Notes under the pieces: model-generated
What the model was told of the DNA's origin: nothing
The model's input: the letters and a program-made list of their open reading frames with translations, nothing else
Database searches by the model: none
NCBI GenBank assembly: GCA_944321765.1
Contig: CALUMQ010000024.1
Span: 1-40,513, forward strand
DNA length: 40,513 nucleotides
Source of the DNA: an uncultured Alistipes sp.
GTDB lineage: Bacteria > Bacteroidota > Bacteroidia > Bacteroidales > Rikenellaceae
Direction of reading: 5' to 3'
Part shown: positions 3,122 through 11,280 of the stretch, piece after piece
Numbering within the stretch: position 1 is the stretch's first letter
How the letters are laid out: every line of letters begins with the position of its first letter
Made by a program: the position numbers and the translations under genes

Positions 3122-3679
3122 CTACATGATGATTGCGAGGAACCGAACCTTCCGGCCGTCGAGGGCCTTCATGCCGTGGGGCAGCGAGGAGTCGAAATAG
3201 AGGCTGTCGCCGACATTGAGAATGATCTCCTTGCCGTTGAGACCGATGAGCAGGCGCCCCTCGAGGACGTAGTTCATCTCCTGACCGGCGTGCGCGTTCA
3301 GGTGCATGGGCACATCGTCGGACGTGGGCTCGACGGTCACGATGAAGGGGTCGATGCGCCGGTCGCGGAATCCCGAGGCCAGCGCCTCGTATTTGTAGGC
3401 CTTCTGGCGCTCGACCGACACGCCCTTGTCGGCGCGCGTAATGAAATAGGCATTCATCCTGGGCTCTTCGCCGAACATCAGCACATCGAGGCTGATGCCG
3501 TAGCGGCGGGCGATGGACTGCAGGACATTGACCGAGATATCGCTCTCGGCACGCTCCATGGCCCGATAGGTCTCAAGGGGGATGCGGCAGCTGTCGGCCA
3601 CCTCCTGCTCCGAGAGTTCGAGGGCGTCGCGCAGTCCGCGCAAACGGGTCGCAATCGACCGGATGGGATCGTCACACAT
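3122..3679 (-). CDS. XRE-family transcriptional regulator with cupin sensor domain
   Basis: A 185-residue protein. Residues 1-70 form a helix-turn-helix of the Cro/C1 (XRE) type ([33 protein letters not shown]). The C-terminal third is a cupin beta-barrel ([45 protein letters not shown]) with the histidine and glutamate positions usual for metal or ligand binding. Such proteins normally sense a small molecule through the cupin and control an adjacent catabolic gene. The acyl-CoA synthetase starts 4 bases downstream, which fits a regulator and its target in one operon. The ATG at 3679 is the only start that gives a complete HTH. No TAnnTTTG box was found upstream on this strand. Confidence 0.92.
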
Positions 3680-4000
3680 GGTTCGGATTGTTATTTTTGA
3701 GTTACTAAACGATGATTATTCAAAGCGCCGCGCAAGTCGAAAGTAACAAATCGGAAGCAAACAGCCTGGAAGAGGTTTACAATCGACAGTTTGGACGCTG
3801 ACAACAACTTGGCAGTAAAGATAATAAAAAACCTCAGGAATAGCAACCCCCTGCGGCAATTCCCCGCAACGGAAAGCATACTTATATATTATAAGCAGGG
3901 TTTCAACCCCCTCTGAAAGGCCTCCGGAGGGATCCGAGACAGGTAAAACGGCATCTGGAGCATGGAAATTGACCCTGGAAATTATTTTTTCACTACGGAT
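3680..4000. other. Gene-free stretch between divergent operons
   Basis: About 320 bases between the start of the minus-strand XRE-cupin gene and the his promoter. The sequence is clearly more AT-rich than the flanking genes, including an A/T run near 3884-3895. I see no convincing ORF, RNA gene, repeat or clear minus-strand promoter box here. Confidence 0.6.
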
Positions 4001-4031
4001 TTTGATTTTTCGACAAGAAACCCTATATTTG
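4001..4031 (+). promoter_or_regulatory. Bacteroidetes-type promoter of the his operon
   Basis: A -33 element TTTG (4001-4004) is followed after 19 bases by TATATTTG (4024-4031), a perfect match to the Bacteroidetes -7 consensus TAnnTTTG. Transcription should begin near 4037, just upstream of the histidine leader peptide. Confidence 0.88.
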
Positions 4032-4054
4032 TACCGCATGAAGCCTTGCAACCC

Positions 4055-4108
4055 ATGACGATTTTTACCCATATCCATCATCACCACCACCACTTCTCCA
4101 AGGGGTAG
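4055..4108 (+). CDS. hisL: Histidine operon leader peptide
   Basis: A 17-codon ORF reading MTIFTHIHHHHHHFSKG and ending in TAG. Seven of its codons specify histidine, six of them in a row (4076-4093). It starts about 18 bases after the predicted transcription start and is followed by a terminator hairpin and then hisG. This is the classic layout of ribosome-mediated attenuation: when charged tRNA-His is scarce the ribosome should stall on the His run and prevent the terminator from forming. The ATG overlaps the TGA of a six-codon ORF (MKPCNP, 4038-4058) that is probably accidental. The His run has no other reasonable explanation, since it sits exactly between a perfect promoter and the first gene of histidine synthesis. 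The gene name follows enterobacterial usage. Confidence 0.9.
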   Translation: MTIFTHIHHHHHHFSKG

Positions 4109-4142
4109 GCGATCCTGTATATGGTATTATGACGAATATACG

Positions 4143-4173
4143 AAGCTCATCCCCCTTGCGGATGGGCTTTTTT
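4143..4173 (+). terminator. Attenuator terminator of the his operon
   Basis: Arms AAGCTCATCC (4143-4152) and GGATGGGCTT (4160-4169) form a 10-bp stem with one G-U pair and a 7-base loop, followed by a run of six T (4168-4173). It lies 35 bases after the leader-peptide stop and 56 bases before hisG. A possible competing pair is CAAGGGG (4099-4105, end of the leader ORF) with CCCCTTG (4152-4158, in the terminator loop). A weaker hairpin GTATAT/ATATAC spans 4117-4141. The terminator is clear; the exact antiterminator is a guess. Confidence 0.87.
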
Positions 4174-4228
4174 CGTGCCTGTGACGCAGCGGGTGAGCAG
4201 CAAAAACACACAAAACACTCTTACCAAC

Positions 4229-5080
4229 ATGCTGAAAATAGCGATTCAGGCCAAGGGCCGCCTCAACGAACAAAGCATCGACATGCTCGCCGAAGCGGGC
4301 ATCCGCGTCGCCGAAAGCAAGCGCAAACTCATCTCCCGGGCCGAGGGATTCCCGCTCCAGGTGCTCTACCTGCGCGACGACGACATTCCGCAGGCCGTCT
4401 CGATGGGTGTTGCCGACCTGGGCATCGTCGGGATGAACGAGGTGGCCGAAAAGGGATACGACGTCGACGAAGTCATGCGCCTCGGATTCGGGGAGTGCCG
4501 GATCTCGCTCGCCGTGCCCAACACGGTCGACTACCCGGGTCTGGAGTTCTTCAACGGAAAACGCGTGGCAACCTCCTATCCCAAAATTCTCGCGCGCTAC
4601 TTCGCCGGGCAGGGAATCCGCGCCGAGATCCACACCATCGAAGGGTCGGTCGAGATAGCTCCGGCCGTGGGCATGGCCGATGCCATCTTCGACATCGTCT
4701 CGTCGGGGGGCACGCTCATCTCCAACGGACTGGTCGAGGTCGAGAAGGTCTTCCAGTCGGAAGCCGTGCTCATCGCCACGAAGACGCTCGGCGAGGCGGC
4801 CCGCCAGGAGCTCGGGCAGCTGACCTTCCGCTTCCGCTCGATCCTCGAAAGCCGCGGCATGAAATACGTGCTGATGAATCTTCCGAAGGAGCGGCTCGAC
4901 GAAGCCATCCGCATTCTTCCGGGCATGCGCAGCCCGACGGTGCTGCCGCTGGCCCAGGAGGGGTGGTGCTCGATCCACGCCGTCATCTCCGAGGAGCAGC
5001 TCTGGGAGCGCATCGAACGGCTGAAGGCCATCGGCGCCGAAGGAATTCTGGTCCTGGCCCTCGAAAACATGATCCGCTGA
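4229..5080 (+). CDS. hisG: ATP phosphoribosyltransferase, long form
   Basis: A 283-residue enzyme for the first, committed step of histidine synthesis: condensation of ATP with PRPP. The N-terminus MLKIAIQAKGRLNEQS is the family start. The PRPP-binding region (SSGGTLISNGLVEVEKV) lies past the middle. The last 75 or so residues form the ACT-like regulatory domain of the long form, where histidine gives feedback inhibition. An upstream in-frame start at 4175 would add 18 unrelated residues and would begin immediately after the attenuator's T-run, so the ATG at 4229 is preferred. The spacer before it is A/C-rich with no Shine-Dalgarno, as usual in Bacteroidetes. It is the first gene of the his operon and the direct target of the attenuator. 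Confidence 0.96.
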   Translation: MLKIAIQAKGRLNEQSIDMLAEAGIRVAESKRKLISRAEGFPLQVLYLRDDDIPQAVSMGVADLGIVGMNEVAEKGYDVDEVMRLGFGECRISLAVPNTVDYPGLEFFNGKRVATSYPKILARYFAGQGIRAEIHTIEGSVEIAPAVGMADAIFDIVSSGGTLISNGLVEVEKVFQSEAVLIATKTLGEAARQELGQLTFRFRSILESRGMKYVLMNLPKERLDEAIRILPGMRSPTVLPLAQEGWCSIHAVISEEQLWERIERLKAIGAEGILVLALENMIR

Positions 5081-5102: not shown

Positions 5103-6398
5103 ATGGAAACACTGAAAATATACAACGAGCCCGAACGGGCCGAATGGAGATCGCTCACCGAACGCTTCACACGCGCCGAGGAGGAGATCACGCAACAGGT
5201 CGCGGCGATTCTCGCCGAGGTGAAGAGGGGCGGCGACCGCGCCCTGCGGGAGATCACGCGTCGGATCGAAGGGCGCGAAGCGTCCGTCTTTGAGATCTCC
5301 GCCGAAGAGCGGCGTGCCGCCGCCGGACGCATTCCCGAGGCGTTGAAAGAGGCGCTGGCCGCGGCACGGGCCAACATCGAGGCATTCCACCGGGCACAAC
5401 TGCCCCGGGAGGTGCGCGTCGAACCGATGCCGGGTGTCGTGTGCGTCCAGCGGGCGCTGCCCATCCGCCGCGTGGGGCTCTACATTCCCGGCGGCAAGGC
5501 GCCGCTCTTCTCCACGGTGCTAATGCTGGCCGTGCCCGCACGGGTGGCCGGATGCCGCGAGGTGATTCTCTGCACTCCGGCCTCGCGCGACGGCGAGGTG
5601 TCCCCCGAAATTCTCTATGCTGCCGATCTGTGCGGCGTCGACCGCATCTTTGCCGTGGGCGGGGCGCAGGCCGTGGCAGCCATGGCCTACGGCACGGAGA
5701 GCATTCCGCGCGTGGAGAAGATCTTCGGCCCCGGGAACCGCTACGTAACGAAGGCCAAACAGCTGGTCGGAGCCAACGACGTGGCCGTCGACCTGCCGGC
5801 CGGACCCTCCGAGGTGCTTGTCCTGGCCGATGACACGGCTTCGCCCGCCGCGGCGGCCGCCGACCTGCTCTCGCAGGCCGAGCACGGCGCCGACAGCCAG
5901 GCGGTGCTGGTCTGCGCCTCGATGGAGTTTGCCCGCGAGGTGCAGCGTGCGGTCAGCGAGCAGCTGAAGGTGCGCCGCCGCGGGGAGATCATCCGCGAAG
6001 CGCTTGAACACAGCCGTATCCTCGTATTCGCCGAACGCGACACACGCATCGACTTTGCAAATGCCTATGCTCCGGAGCACCTGATCCTCGCCATGGAGCG
6101 TCCGTGGGAGGCCGCCGCCGGGATCACGGCCGCGGGAAGCGTCTTCGTGGGAGCCTGGTCGCCCGAGAGCGCCGGGGACTATGCTTCGGGGACCAACCAC
6201 ACGCTGCCCACGGGCGGCTGGGCCCGGGCCTACAGCGGGGTGAACACCGATTCGTTCCTGCGCAAGATCACCTACCAGGAGCTCACACGTGAAGGTCTCG
6301 CGCGCCTGGCCCCGACGATCGTGGCGATGGCCGAGGCCGAAGGGCTCGACGCACACGCCGCCGCCGTCCGCATCCGACTCGAAAACGATCCGTCATGA
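5103..6398 (+). CDS. hisD: Histidinol dehydrogenase
   Basis: A 431-residue, full-length, zinc-dependent enzyme that oxidises L-histidinol to L-histidine in two NAD+-linked steps, the last reactions of the pathway. Recognisable blocks include the nucleotide-binding region (VGLYIPGGKAPLFSTVLMLA), GPGNRYVTKAKQ, PAGPSEVLVLADD, SQAEHGADSQAVLV with its Gln/His zinc-site residues, and APEHLIL with the catalytic Glu-His pair. It starts 22 bases after hisG, and its TGA overlaps the ATG of hisC (ATGA at 6395-6398), so translation is likely coupled. Confidence 0.97.
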   Translation: METLKIYNEPERAEWRSLTERFTRAEEEITQQVAAILAEVKRGGDRALREITRRIEGREASVFEISAEERRAAAGRIPEALKEALAAARANIEAFHRAQLPREVRVEPMPGVVCVQRALPIRRVGLYIPGGKAPLFSTVLMLAVPARVAGCREVILCTPASRDGEVSPEILYAADLCGVDRIFAVGGAQAVAAMAYGTESIPRVEKIFGPGNRYVTKAKQLVGANDVAVDLPAGPSEVLVLADDTASPAAAAADLLSQAEHGADSQAVLVCASMEFAREVQRAVSEQLKVRRRGEIIREALEHSRILVFAERDTRIDFANAYAPEHLILAMERPWEAAAGITAAGSVFVGAWSPESAGDYASGTNHTLPTGGWARAYSGVNTDSFLRKITYQELTREGLARLAPTIVAMAEAEGLDAHAAAVRIRLENDPS

Positions 6399-7429
6399 AA
6401 CGTCTCGAAGAACTTGTACGCCCGAACATATGGGCGTTGAAACCCTACTCCACGGCCCGCGACGAATACGCCGGCGGGGAGATCTCGACGTGGCTCGACG
6501 CCAACGAGAGCCCCTACGACAACGGACTGAACCGCTACCCCGACCCGCACCAGCGGGAGCTGAAGCAGCGGATCGCCCGCATGAAGGGCGTGCGCGAGAG
6601 ACAGGTATTTCTCGGTAACGGCAGCGACGAGGCCATAGACCTCCCCTACCGGATCTTCTGCATGCCGGGGCGCGACAACGCCGTGTCGATCGCCCCGACC
6701 TACGGCATGTACCGCGTGGCGGCCGACATCAACGACGTCGAGATGCGCGAGGTGCCGCTCGGCAACGACTTCGCGCTGCCGGTCGACGCCCTGCTGGCCG
6801 CCTGCGACGAACGCACGAAGCTGCTGTGGATCTGCTCGCCGAACAATCCCACGGGAAACGCCTTCCCCGCGGCGGAGATCGAACGGCTCGTGCGCGCGTT
6901 CGACGGCATGGTCATTCTGGACGAGGCCTACATCGACTTCGCCGACGGGCCGGGATTCCTCCCGCGGCTCGACGAATTCCCGAATCTCATCATCCTGCAG
7001 ACCTTCTCCAAGGCGTGGGGCATGGCGGGCGTGCGTCTCGGCATGGCCTTTGCCGCGGAGCCCGTCGCCGAACTGATGGCCCGCGTGAAGTACCCCTACA
7101 ACATCAACTGTCTGGCGCAGGCGACCGTTGCCGAACGCCTCGCGACCGACATCTCCGCACAGGTGGCCGAAATCCGCGCCGAGCGCCGGCGCATGGCCGG
7201 GGCCCTTGCCGCATGCGGGGCCATCGAGCGGGTCTACCCCTCGGATGCCAACTTTCTGCTCGTGCGCACGCCGGCTCCCGACCGGCTCTACGACGCGCTG
7301 ATTGCGGCCGGGGTCATCGTCCGCAACCGTTCGCGCGTGAGGGGCTGCGAGGGGTGTCTGCGCATCACGATCGGCCGCCCGGAGGAGAACGACCGCATGT
7401 TACGAACCGTAGAAAATTTCCGCCCATGA
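6395..7429 (+). CDS. hisC: Histidinol-phosphate aminotransferase
   Basis: A 344-residue class I/II PLP-dependent aminotransferase that converts imidazole acetol phosphate and glutamate to histidinol phosphate. Seen are [17 protein letters not shown] near the N-terminus, the substrate region [19 protein letters not shown], and the PLP-lysine motif [13 protein letters not shown]. The Arg that binds the substrate phosphate/carboxylate is in [11 protein letters not shown] near the C-terminus. Start and stop each overlap the neighbouring his genes by 4 bases. Length and motifs are normal for the family. Confidence 0.97.
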
Positions 7430-8553
7430 AAAAAGCCCTCTTCATCGACCGCGACGGAACGATCATCGCGGAACCCGCCGACGAACAGATCGACAGCCTC
7501 GAAAAGCTGGCGTTCGTTCCCGGCGCCATCTCGGGGCTGAAGGTCCTTGCGGGGTTGGATTTCGAGCTGGTGCTGGCCACGAACCAGGACGGGCTGGGCA
7601 CGGCATCGTTCCCCGAGGAGACCTTCTGGCCGGCCCACAACAAGATGCTCGCGACGCTCCGCGGAGAAGGGGTCTCCTTCGACGACGAGCTCATCGACCG
7701 CACCTTCGAGCGCGACAATGCCCCGACGCGCAAACCCCGCACGGGGATGTTTTCCCGATACCTGGACGGCACCTATGATTTGGCCGGCAGCTACGTCATC
7801 GGCGACCGCGCGACCGACATCCTGCTGGCCCGCAACCTCGGGACGCGGGGCATCCTGCTCCGCCCGGCGGACGAAGGGCAACGGATGCTCGAAGAGGCCG
7901 GAGCCGCCGATGCCTGCGCCCTGGTGACCGACTCGTGGGAGGAGGTCGCCGAATTCATCCGCCGCGGCGAGCGGCGTGTGGAGGTGCGGCGCGAGACGCG
8001 CGAGACGCAGATCCGCGTGCGTCTCGACCTCGACGGACGCGGCGACTTCAACGACCGCATCTCGACGGGCCTGCGCTTTCTGGACCACATGCTCTCGCAA
8101 ATCGCCCACCACGGCGGCGTGGCCCTCGAGGTCGAGGCGCACGGCGATCTGGACATCGACGAACACCACACGATGGAGGATGTGGCCATCACGCTGGGCG
8201 AGGCGATCGACCGCGCCCTGGGCTCGAAGGCCGGCATTGCCCGCTACGGATTCGCCCTGCCGATGGACGACTGCCGTGCGCTGGTGCTGCTAGACTTCGG
8301 CGGGAGAATCGACTTCGAATGGGAGGTCGAGTTCCGCCGCGAGCGGGTCGGCGACGTCCCCACGGAGATGTTCCGCCACTTCTTCCACTCGCTGTGCTGC
8401 GCCGCGCGGTGCAACCTCCAGATCGCGGCCCGCGGCGAGAACGACCACCACAAGGCCGAAGCCATCTTCAAGGCCTTCGCCCGGGCGCTGCGCATGGCCG
8501 TGGCGCGGCAAGGTTTCGGATACGACATACCCAGCAGCAAAGGAGTCCTATGA
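7426..8553 (+). CDS. hisB: Bifunctional histidinol-phosphatase / imidazoleglycerol-phosphate dehydratase
   Basis: A 375-residue fusion. Residues 1-165 are a HAD-type phosphatase with the nucleophile motif DRDGT at residues 8-12 and [14 protein letters not shown] later; this half makes histidinol. From about residue 175 the protein is imidazoleglycerol-phosphate dehydratase, with [30 protein letters not shown] and [18 protein letters not shown] supplying the His/Glu ligands of its two-metal sites. The ATG at 7426 overlaps the hisC stop, and the 575-residue reading that runs further upstream is simply open frame through hisC. The fusion is known in enterobacteria and Bacteroidetes. Confidence 0.96.
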
Positions 8554-9152
8554 TAGCCGTTGTCGATTATGCCACGGGCAACCTGCGATCGGTTGCCAAC
8601 GCCCTGCACCGTGCCGGGGCGGAGTTCACACTCACGGCCGACCCCGCCCTTCTGCGCGCGGCCGACCGGGTCATTCTGCCGGGCGTCGGCGAGGCGTCGA
8701 GCGCCATGGCGAAGCTCCGCGAGCGGGAGCTCGACGGGGTGATCCCCACGCTGACCTGCCCCGTGCTGGGCATCTGCATCGGCATGCAGCTGATGTGCCT
8801 TACGAGCGAAGAGGGAGACGCCCGCTGCATGGGCATCTTCCCGACGCACGTCCGGCGGCTGCGGGGAGGAGCATCGGAAGAGGGGCCGCTGAAGGTTCCC
8901 CATGTGGGATGGGATACCATCGAGGGGTTGCGGACGCCGCTCTTCGATGGGCTGCACGAAGGGAGCTTCGTCTACTACGTGCACTCCTTCGCGGCCGAAA
9001 CGTGTCCGGCCACCATCGCCACGACCCGTTACGGAGAGTCGTTCAGCGCAGCCCTCGGCCGGCGGAACTTCTACGGCGTGCAGTTTCATCCCGAGAAGAG
9101 CGGCGCCACCGGGGCCGCGATCATTCGCAATTTTCTAAATCTACATCCATGA
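8550..9152 (+). CDS. hisH: Imidazole glycerol phosphate synthase, glutaminase subunit
   Basis: A 200-residue class I glutamine amidotransferase that releases ammonia from glutamine and channels it into HisF. The nucleophile is Cys76 in GICIGMQL. The His and Glu of the triad are in [10 protein letters not shown] near the C-terminus, and the oxyanion strand is in the ILPGVG motif. The start codon overlaps the hisB stop (8550-8553), and AGGAG at 8541-8545 is one of the few Shine-Dalgarno-like sequences in the operon. Its stop overlaps the hisA start. The partner subunit HisF is two genes downstream. Confidence 0.97.
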
Positions 9153-9880
9153 ACATCACCATTATCCCCGCTACAGACCTGATCGGCGGAGAGTGCGTAC
9201 GCCTCACGCAGGGCGACTACGCCAGCCGCCGGACCTACTTCCGCGATCCGCTCGAAGCCGCCCTGCGCTTCGAGGAGGCGGGCATCCGCCGCCTGCACAT
9301 GGTCGACCTCGACGGAGCGAAGGCCTCCGAACCGCGGAACCTAAAGGTGCTGGAACGCGTGGCGACACGCACGTCGCTCGAGGTGCAATACGGCGGCGGC
9401 ATCAAGAGCCGCGCAGCACTCGGCAGCGTCTTCGATGCCGGGGCACGGCGGGCCATCTGCGGCAGCGTGGCGGTGCGTCAGCCGGATGCATTTGCCGAAT
9501 GGCTCGCGGAATTCGGTCCGGAGCGGCTGATCCTCGGCGCCGATCTGCGCGACGGGAAGGTCGCCATCCAGGGGTGGCTCGAGGAGTCCGCGCTAACGGG
9601 CGCCGAACTCATCGGCGATTTCGCCGCCCGGGGCCTCACGCAGGCCATCTGCACCGACATCTCGCGCGACGGCATGCTTTGCGGACCCTCGGTGGCCCTC
9701 TACACCGCACTGCAACGGCAGTTTCCCGCCGTGGAGATCACCGTCAGCGGCGGCATCTCGTCGATGGACGACCTGCGGGAACTCGACAGGCAGGGATTGC
9801 GCAGCGTCATCGTCGGCAAGGCGCTTTACGAAGGACGTATCACCCTCAAAGAGATCGAACAATGCTTGCAAAACGCATAA
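9149..9880 (+). CDS. hisA: ProFAR isomerase (HisA)
   Basis: A 243-residue (beta-alpha)8 barrel that isomerises ProFAR to PRFAR by an Amadori rearrangement. The catalytic aspartates lie in [13 protein letters not shown] at the N-terminus and [14 protein letters not shown] in the second half-barrel. Phosphate-binding loops are visible as QYGGGIKS and TVSGGISS. The first motif reads ATDLIGG where AIDLxxG is common, a mild change. The ATG overlaps the hisH stop by 4 bases and the 3' end overlaps hisF by 19 bases. Confidence 0.96.
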
Positions 9881-10614
9881 TCCCCTGCCTTGACATCCGC
9901 GACGGACAGACCGTCAAAGGAATCCATTTCGAGGAGCTGCGGAGGGTCGGCGACCCCGTGGAGCTGGGGGCGAAGTACGCCGCCGAGGGGGCCGACGAGC
10001 TGGTCTACCTCGACATCAGCGCCACGCAGGAGGGGCGCCGGACCTTTACAGATCTGGTCACGCGCATCGCCGCCCGCATCGACATTCCGTTCACCGTCGG
10101 CGGCGGCATCGCCTCGGTCGACGACGCCGGGCGGCTGCTCGACGCCGGGGCCGACAAGGTGACGGTCAACAGCGCCGCCGTGCGCGATCCGTCGCTGATC
10201 GACGCCATCGCCGCGAAGTACGGGTCGCAGTTCGTCGTGGCGGCGATCGACGCCCGCACGGTCGACGGCCGCTGGGTCGTGACGACCCACGGAGGACGCC
10301 GCCCCACCGAACGGGAGCTCTTCACCTGGGCCCGGGAGGCCGTCGACCGCGGAGCCGGAGAGATCCTCTTCACCTCGATGGACCACGACGGTACGAAGAA
10401 CGGCTATCCGTGCGAGACCTTTGCACGGCTGGCGGAACTCCCCGTGCCGATCATCGCCTCGGGAGGCGCCGGGACGGTGGACCACATTGCCGAGGTGCTC
10501 ACGGCGGGACGCGCCGACGCGGCGCTGGCCGCCAGCATCTTCCACTACAACGAAACTCCCATCCCGACGCTGAAACAGGCCTTGCGGGAGCGCGGAATCC
10601 CCGTCCGCCTCTGA
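9862..10614 (+). CDS. hisF: Imidazole glycerol phosphate synthase, cyclase subunit
   Basis: A 250-residue (beta-alpha)8 barrel that uses ammonia from HisH to turn PRFAR into imidazole glycerol phosphate and AICAR. The catalytic Asp residues are in [14 protein letters not shown] (Asp11) and in [11 protein letters not shown]; phosphate loops are FTVGGGIAS and IASGGAGT. The start at 9862 lies inside the hisA coding sequence, a 19-base overlap in a different frame. It is supported because [13 protein letters not shown] is the usual N-terminus. Normal length. Confidence 0.97.
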
Positions 10615-10659
10615 CGGCGTGAAACCACGACAGCAAACAAACGACAAAATACGAAAACC

Positions 10660-11280
10660 ATGAAAATTTCAGGAAAACCCTTCTCGGAACTCGACACCGC
10701 AAAACTGCCCGACGGTCTGGTGCCCGCCGTCATTCAGGATGCCCTCACGCTTCAGGTGCTGATGCTGGGCTACATGAACCGTGAAGCCTATGAAAAGAGC
10801 CTCGCCGAGGGACGTGTCACGTTCTACAGCCGCTCGCGCAAGTGCCTCTGGACGAAGGGCGAGACCAGCGGCCACTGGCTCGACATCGTCTCGGTGGCCG
10901 CCGACTGCGACAACGACACGCTGCTCATACGCGTGATTCCCCACGGCCCGACGTGCCACACGGGATCGAAGACATGCTTCGGGGAGGCCGTACCCGAGAC
11001 CGAGGGCTTCATCCGCTACCTGCAGAGCGTCATCCAGGGACGGCATGCCGAGATGCCCGAAGGCTCCTACACTTCGAAACTCTTCACGCGCGGGGTGAAC
11101 AAGATTGCCCAGAAGGTCGGCGAGGAGGCCGTCGAGACGGTTATCGAGGCCGTGGCTGGCAACCGCGACGCCATGATCTACGAGGCTTCGGACCTCATTT
11201 ACCACCTGCTCGTGCTGCTCGAAGCCACGGGATGCACGATCGCCGACCTCGAAAAGGAGCTCGCCCGGCGGCACTCCTGA
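10660..11280 (+). CDS. hisIE: Bifunctional phosphoribosyl-AMP cyclohydrolase / phosphoribosyl-ATP pyrophosphatase
   Basis: A 206-residue fusion that carries out the second and third steps of the pathway. The N-terminal HisI half has FYSRSRKCLWTKGETSGHWL and the zinc/metal motifs DCDNDTLLIRV and PTCHTG. The C-terminal HisE half, from about residue 110, has FTRGVNKIAQKVGEEAVETVIEA and a helical DLIYHLLVLL. It starts 45 bases after hisF, the widest gap inside the operon apart from the leader, and is the last his gene. A strong terminator follows at 11394-11440. Confidence 0.96.
   Translation: MKISGKPFSELDTAKLPDGLVPAVIQDALTLQVLMLGYMNREAYEKSLAEGRVTFYSRSRKCLWTKGETSGHWLDIVSVAADCDNDTLLIRVIPHGPTCHTGSKTCFGEAVPETEGFIRYLQSVIQGRHAEMPEGSYTSKLFTRGVNKIAQKVGEEAVETVIEAVAGNRDAMIYEASDLIYHLLVLLEATGCTIADLEKELARRHS

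Follow-up and report, generated by a model that had tools for sequence, protein, structure and literature searches.

The window (the whole stretch of DNA analysed, 40,513 nucleotides) belongs to the genome of an Alistipes-like member of the Bacteroidales. The genome contained 2.3 Mb and was 88.6% complete. The closest named HisG retained was that of Candidatus Alistipes faecavium, which was 93% identical. Read along the forward strand, the sequence contains a presumed promoter (4001-4031), a short leader open reading frame (ORF; 4055-4108), an intrinsic terminator (4142-4173), and hisG from 4229. The gene upstream (3122-3679) encodes cupin and helix-turn-helix domains, identified by domain search, and lies on the strand opposite to hisG. 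It runs away from the leader, and the terminator at 4142-4173 therefore cannot be its own.

The first-pass annotation had placed hisG at the head of a complete his operon. NCBIfam and Pfam profile matches agree, with the gene order hisG, hisD, hisC, hisB, hisH, hisA, hisF, and hisIE, all on the forward strand. hisG (4229-5080) matched TIGR00070 with 200 bits. It is followed by hisD (5103-6398; TIGR00069), hisC (6395-7429; TIGR01141), a bifunctional hisB (7423-8553; NF003937), hisH (8568-9152; TIGR01855), hisA (9149-9880; TIGR00007), hisF (9862-10614), and hisIE (10660-11280; NF002747). The start codons of hisB, hisH, and hisF are unsettled. hisF was named from a match to Pfam PF00977 (His_biosynth, 244.7 bits) and from its place after hisA. 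An alternative hisF frame at 9894-10619 had zero profile matches and was rejected.

The presumed leader promoter contains a -33 element, TTTG (4001-4004), and a -7 element, TATATTTG (4024-4031), with 19 nt between them. Both were read from the forward strand, the second by comparison with TAnnTTTG. We take TTTG-N19-TAnnTTTG to be the Bacteroides promoter layout. The consensus promoter proposed earlier is present in this Bacteroidota-type form. According to PMC9723704, TAnnTTTG is the -7 box of sigma A. Of the 172 leaders that we compared, 127 have the box no more than 55 nt ahead of their start codon, versus 5 of 161 control windows. It lies 17-25 nt from the leader start in 77 of those 127 leaders.

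The leader ORF, MTIFTHIHHHHHHFSKG, has 17 codons on the forward strand and ends with the stop codon TAG at 4106-4108. It contains seven His codons in total, namely, codon 6 (4070-4072) and the six consecutive codons 8-13 (4076-4093), and these are the putative regulatory codons (4070-4093). There is no Shine-Dalgarno-like site in sight before the leader start at 4055. Bacteroidota are generally known to make little use of Shine-Dalgarno sites. Among ATG ORFs of 8-45 amino acids, 6 His in 7 residues was reached in 0 of 2,000 dinucleotide shuffles of 3681-4228, and at least 4 in 7 was reached in 5 of 2,000. The window contains no second short ATG ORF that reaches 4 in 7. Six CAY codons in a row are found at two sites in the 2.3-Mb genome, one of which is the leader ORF, and four in a row occur 41 times genome-wide. 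By the shuffles, the ORF and its His run, which had been picked out from the sequence earlier, are not due to chance. A second frame, MKPCNP (4038-4058), has a stop codon that overlaps the leader start (ATGA). It was absent from the other leaders inspected and was dropped.

The terminator hairpin (strands 3:4) lies at 4142-4170 on the forward strand. Its folding energy ranges from -13.5 to -14.8 kcal/mol with the choice of ends. The arms GAAGCTCATCC (4142-4152) and GGATGGGCTTT (4160-4170) form 11 pairs, some of them G-U, and the T run, read from the sequence, contains six T (4168-4173). The hairpin with six T that had been noted before hisG was thus recovered at 4142-4173, with the G-U pairs counted.

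Folding predicts an antiterminator on the same strand. Its 5' strand (strand 2; 4099-4110) contains CAAGGGG and GGC and overlaps the leader stop codon. Its 3' strand (4145-4158) contains GCT and CCCCTTG and overlaps the 5' arm and the loop of the terminator. CAAGGGG (4099-4105) pairs with CCCCTTG (4152-4158), and GGC (4108-4110) pairs with GCT (4145-4147). An inner hairpin with the core GTATAT/ATATAC (4116-4142) is present in the fold of 4099-4158, which has an energy of -16.8 kcal/mol. The antiterminator runs across the terminator's 5' arm, and the two structures are therefore mutually exclusive. When untranslated, the leader may also form a protector (strand 1:2) at 4069-4124 on this strand. 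The protector belongs to the lowest-energy fold, and its region has approximately -17.0 kcal/mol. It is weak.

Folding with and without a masked ribosome had been suggested in the first-pass annotation. The RNA up to 4159 was folded with the ribosome footprint masked, using three footprint sizes. When any of codons 6-10 occupied the A site, the CAAGGGG/CCCCTTG helix had a probability of 0.97. It dropped between codons 11 and 13, varying with footprint size, and was 0.00 from codon 14 through the stop codon with all three footprints. In ribosome-free RNA to 4159, the antiterminator had a probability of 0.82, and the protector fold is therefore doubtful. Once the full hairpin is synthesized, equilibrium folding favors the terminator (probability of at least 0.93) in every ribosome state tried. 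Antitermination would therefore depend on the order of synthesis. Folding of the whole leader was set aside as the sole proof of a switch, with a z score of only -1.68. The case is made instead from masked folding and comparison, and both support the CAAGGGG/CCCCTTG core that had been named as the likely antiterminator.

For the comparison, regions upstream of hisG were retrieved from whole genomes as well as from named contigs. They contained 264 distinct regions after duplicate removal. Part of the 213 genomes with hisG was covered, with 29 new loci plus 60 and 20 stretches. L271 and L273 were left out because no hisG start was recognized, and the hisG matches of G016, G179, and G079 were also left out. 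A leader was scored as a short ORF in which a stretch of 7 residues contained 4 or more His. The rule admits doubtful ORFs (L108, L153, and L268 by eye), and it overlooks the leader of L025, which is located at a greater distance from hisG. In this comparison of related genomes, which the first-pass annotation had proposed as a check, a His-rich leader was found before hisG in 173 of the 264 regions. By set, the counts were 31/39 in the family, 49/72 in the order, 40/47 in the class, 25/38 in other classes, and 28/68 in the named contigs. In an initial set of regions, at least 4 in 7 residues were His in 72 of 127, and the best other amino acid was Leu (16 of 127).

The other 91 regions were leader negative. 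Three His were present in 23 of them, including all 7 remaining in the class. A frame of at least 80 codons ended near hisG in 38, 50 had no such frame, and 3 were too short to tell. In the 38 with the frame, hisG is possibly not the first gene of its operon. At least six Muribaculaceae-titled loci (L079, L080, L081, L089, L094, and L100) contained hisG, and a His leader was not found before it. In these loci, control through a His leader has apparently been lost or replaced.

Ten leaders, including that of the window, were of equal length. Codons 6, 8, 9, and 10 were His in 10/10, codon 11 in 7/10, codon 12 in 3/10, and codon 13 in 9/10. Both CAT and CAC were used at codons 8, 10, and 11. The retention of His while CAT and CAC interchange fits translation of the leader. 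Codon 12 is less constrained, in agreement with the predicted fold, in which a stall there would come late. This late-stall reading leaves codon 13 unaccounted for.

The terminator was scored as a hairpin of -8 kcal/mol or lower preceding a T run between the leader and hisG. By this rule it was present after 147 of the 173 His leaders versus 16 of 519 shuffles. The count is a lower bound, since the hairpins of L006, L012, L131, L174, and L207 sit 1-2 letters before the T's. Three other leaders (L142, L144, and L146) end in HHFHHSS, and no terminator was found after them. They have CACCCA, GGTGA, and TTCACC in common before hisG. L237, L240, L248, and L249 also have His-rich leaders, with hairpins before hisG that are weak or were not found.

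The ribosome test was extended to the 147 loci with terminators. The upstream pairing of strand 3 was compared with the ribosome at the first His codon and at the stop codon. It was 0.72 at the first His versus 0.30 at the stop. A gain above 0.2 at the first His was present in 116 of the 147 loci and the reverse in 1; with the spacer shuffled, the counts were 24 and 13. Enlarging the footprint gave 111 loci with a gain and 0 with the reverse, versus 35 and 11 in the shuffled-spacer control. The window itself showed no gain in this measure (0.51 at His and 0.58 at the stop). The probable reason is that its core pairing extends into the loop of the terminator; its CAAGGGG/CCCCTTG helix is the element predicted to switch.

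Strand 2 bound the terminator arm of its own locus with a mean of -12.4 kcal/mol over the 147 loci, compared with -9.1 kcal/mol for the arms of other loci and -8.3 kcal/mol for shuffled copies. The real strand 2 was matched by at most 5 of 100 shuffles in 77 loci and by more than 5 of 100 in the other 70. In 101 of 147 loci, the best strand 2 helix runs across the stop codon of the leader. A common form of the antiterminator is GG-UAR-GC paired with GCUUACC.

An alignment (A1) was made from 51 of the 147 rows. These have a GGTA-like motif near the stop codon and a spacing of 30-60 nt, and loci of further classes were excluded. This choice of rows favors the antiterminator, whose helix was paired in 87.7% of cells in the 51 selected rows versus 24-53% in slid versions. 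The terminator was paired in 93.3% of cells of the same rows versus 34-63% in slid versions, with both sides changed in 8 of 11 pairs. Two-sided changes in the antiterminator pairs of A1 were not above shuffles (371 of 500 shuffles reach the count), and the covariation of the putative antiterminator is modest.

In family f117, from the same class, a Ser-Gln-Ala recurs near the C terminus of the peptide, and its codons pair with the terminator arm. In L241, for example, the Ser-Gln-Ala codons serve as the antiterminator strand, and CTCAAGCG pairs with CGTTTGAG. A peptide end with Ser-Gln-Ala recurs in L222, L226, L231, L232, L234, L236, L239, and L241. The end of the peptide may be shaped by a constraint of RNA pairing.

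The genome that contains the window has two further candidate leaders. A Phe/Tyr-rich leader, MRLHGFAYFFYYFFFYAKRRSGIAWS, lies upstream of pheA (L292, contig C40 of G000, reverse strand of the locus). It has a terminator of -22.7 kcal/mol and an antiterminator of 11 bp. An Ile/Leu/Val-rich leader, MTVLIHSNIIVINLLLVVNA, lies upstream of ilvD (L294, contig C19 of G000, reverse strand of the locus). It has a hairpin of -15.8 kcal/mol and an antiterminator of 12 bp. The ilvD hairpin ends with only four T before a C and is weaker as a terminator than the others. Neither locus had an Rfam match at the gathering score. No leader was found before the homoserine dehydrogenase gene in the stretch read, and the 88.6% complete genome had no match to PF04715 (anthranilate synthase N domain). 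The attenuator design thus appears before pheA and ilvD too, with other codons.

At positions 4001-4228, transcription of the his operon is very probably controlled by ribosome-mediated attenuation, the mechanism that the first-pass annotation had proposed and that folding and comparison support. The region contains an amino-acid-rich leader ORF and an intrinsic terminator. An antiterminator that excludes the terminator and a fold that depends on ribosome position are predicted for it. These parts, their conservation, their exclusive pairings, and the predicted dependence on the ribosome come from sequence and computation. RNA polymerase would start near 4036-4040, and a ribosome coupled to it would start the leader at 4055. 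With plentiful histidyl-tRNA, the ribosome would reach the stop codon at 4106-4108, inside strand 2, and cover that strand. The hairpin at 4142-4170 would then form, and transcription would stop in the T run. With scarce histidyl-tRNA, the ribosome would wait at codon 6 and then at codons 8-10 or 11. Strand 2 (4099-4110) would be free to pair with 4145-4158. This pairing would take up the terminator's 5' arm, and the polymerase would enter hisG. We infer from this model that the his operon would respond to histidine and is probably turned on when histidine is scarce.

Three other explanations were weighed against this one. The leader might control the translation of hisG, or the terminated RNA might act elsewhere as a small RNA, with no read-through in either case. 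Premature termination would give an RNA of about 135 nt, and 5'-derived small RNAs have been reported in B. thetaiotaomicron (PMC7366714). In the fold of 4037-4260, however, the hisG start region (4214-4243) pairs nearby and has a probability of 0.00 of pairing with the leader, and the terminators are conserved. We consider this explanation very unlikely as a replacement for attenuation. The terminated leader could have an added role as a small RNA. A small functional His-rich protein, for example, one that binds metal, is extremely unlikely to be the product of the ORF. It would be encoded ahead of a plain terminator, with hisG expressed from another promoter. The 170 distinct peptides that reach the His density of the leader rule (4 or more in 7) share chiefly the His cluster, and the ORF precedes hisG in genomes whose HisG is as little as approximately 41% identical. 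Such a protein would be consistent with a short ORF that has its own promoter box and terminator, but it leaves aside the better fit of strand 2 to the terminator arm of its own locus than to those of others. The leaders of pheA and ilvD in the same genome, rich in Phe/Tyr and in Ile/Leu/Val, respectively, also argue against it.

The remaining explanation is a known regulatory RNA, either a histidine T-box or a proteobacterial His_leader gained by transfer. The gene, the amino acid, and the general layout are those of E. coli hisL. Rfam RF00514 (His_leader, gathering score 49) was nevertheless unmatched in the window and in 20 relatives, and no other Rfam family matched them at its gathering score. 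Neither His_leader nor the T-box models were listed for the window at E values up to 10, whereas the positive control, E. coli hisL, matched RF00514 at 131.6 bits. We regard this explanation as almost certainly wrong. RF01692 (Bacteroid-trp) also had no match in the window. The best Rfam match of the window was Thr_leader with 21.4 bits (E value of 0.063). It lies below the gathering score of 55 and was rejected, and the score may reflect the ACC/CAC repeats.

A family of another class in the same phylum, f135, has His leaders after which the terminator rule finds no terminator. We guess that it is perhaps Balneolaceae. Its loci are L260-L262, L264, L267, L274, L276-L279, and L295-L313. A leader ORF with 4-11 His was present in 29 of 29 f135 genomes with hisG, counted by a looser rule of 4 His in the whole ORF. 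L314, from family f133, also passes this rule and was left out. The last His is 0-1 codons before the stop codon in 20 of 29, and the median number of codons between them is 0, compared with 5 in the terminator group. The start codon is GTG in 21 of 29. In 17 of 29, the leader start lies 4-5 nt past TAnnTTTG, and the mRNA would therefore be leaderless or nearly so. The exact box is absent in 11.

The terminator rule that recovered 147 of 173 leaders elsewhere recovered 0 of the 29 f135 loci. L262, L300, and L313 contain a hairpin that no T run adjoins. The 84-120 nt past the stop codon are unstructured, with a mean z score of +0.72; for the terminator group the mean was -3.03 (60 rows). The excess of C over G past the stop is 0.161 of the length in f135 versus -0.019 in the terminator group. 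In f135 it is -0.021 in the 150 nt before the promoter and -0.051 at the hisG start, and it is higher past the stop than before the promoter in 29 of 29. The leader ORF has an excess of 0.138, as expected of His codons. Rho prefers unstructured RNA with more C than G, and the RNA past the f135 stop codon therefore suggests a Rho-type attenuator. On this reading, a ribosome that stalls on the final His codons would sit over the C-rich Rho entry site. Starvation would block Rho, and no antiterminator would be built. It is conceivable, and we put it forward tentatively as somewhat less than an even chance, that His attenuation is ancestral in Bacteroidota and that its termination machinery changed to a Rho type in the f135 lineage. 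If this is true, f135 shows two termination machineries serving one sensor.

The window and its relatives contain a candidate for amino-acid sensing through the ribosome that is widely conserved in Bacteroidota, a dominant gut phylum. Control of his, phe, and ilv genes without a known riboswitch is suggested for such genomes. Many unannotated short leader ORFs could be named. The his leader may also serve as a test of transcription-translation coupling in bacteria with little use of Shine-Dalgarno sites.

The phylum had offered hints of such control before. Bacteroides thetaiotaomicron belongs to the Bacteroidales. In this species, sORFs "reminiscent of leader peptides" lie in long 5' untranslated regions, and transcription attenuation was suggested (PMC7366714). 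The case named there is not a his gene, and the main text does not use the word "histidine" (PMC7366714). "Strong clues" of leader-peptide attenuation upstream of amino-acid operons were described for Flavobacterium psychrophilum, along with a 5' element of hisG that is also present in other genera of Flavobacteriaceae and has no Rfam hits (PMC9723704). That element is from the same phylum, and its description gives no leader peptide, antiterminator, or wider distribution (PMC9723704). Bacteroid-trp (RF01692) is a Bacteroidetes RNA (PMC2864571) that is similar to the Trp leader (PMC6414381). Like the leader of the window, it resembles an attenuator and serves an amino-acid operon, but for tryptophan rather than histidine. 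A 2021 survey of his genes in the superphylum mentions attenuation for enterobacteria only, and its main text contains no word beginning with "leader" (PMC8305728). None of the matches listed among open-licence full texts describes a his attenuator across Bacteroidota, which is weak evidence of absence. The first-pass annotation had known of no experimental study of such an attenuator in Bacteroidales. For the phylum the idea is not entirely new, since clues of leader-peptide attenuation were already available (PMC9723704, PMC7366714).

Outside the phylum, His attenuators of Firmicutes have a leader with three to five His codons (PMC9413887) and were predicted by comparison (PMC9413887; PMC2965389). 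By their description they likewise have a short leader with a His stretch. The leader of the window is also like E. coli hisL. Both contain seven His codons and a terminator with a T run and precede hisG, and the leader has 16 codons in E. coli versus 17 here. The distance from the last His codon to the T run is 100 nt in E. coli and 74 nt here, and the earlier statement that the His run lies unusually far from the terminator for the proteobacterial version does not hold. The RF00514 consensus contains two hairpins before the terminator, whereas the window contains one predicted antiterminator, whose 5' strand includes the stop codon of the leader. This difference and the missing His_leader match are compatible with the earlier suggestion of an independent solution, but leaders this short cannot prove a separate origin. 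Judged from folding and sequence, the leader is one that would work like hisL and yet lies outside that RNA family. By all that sequence can show, it is a conserved, textbook-like histidine attenuator, of a known kind and in a phylum that had only hints of one.
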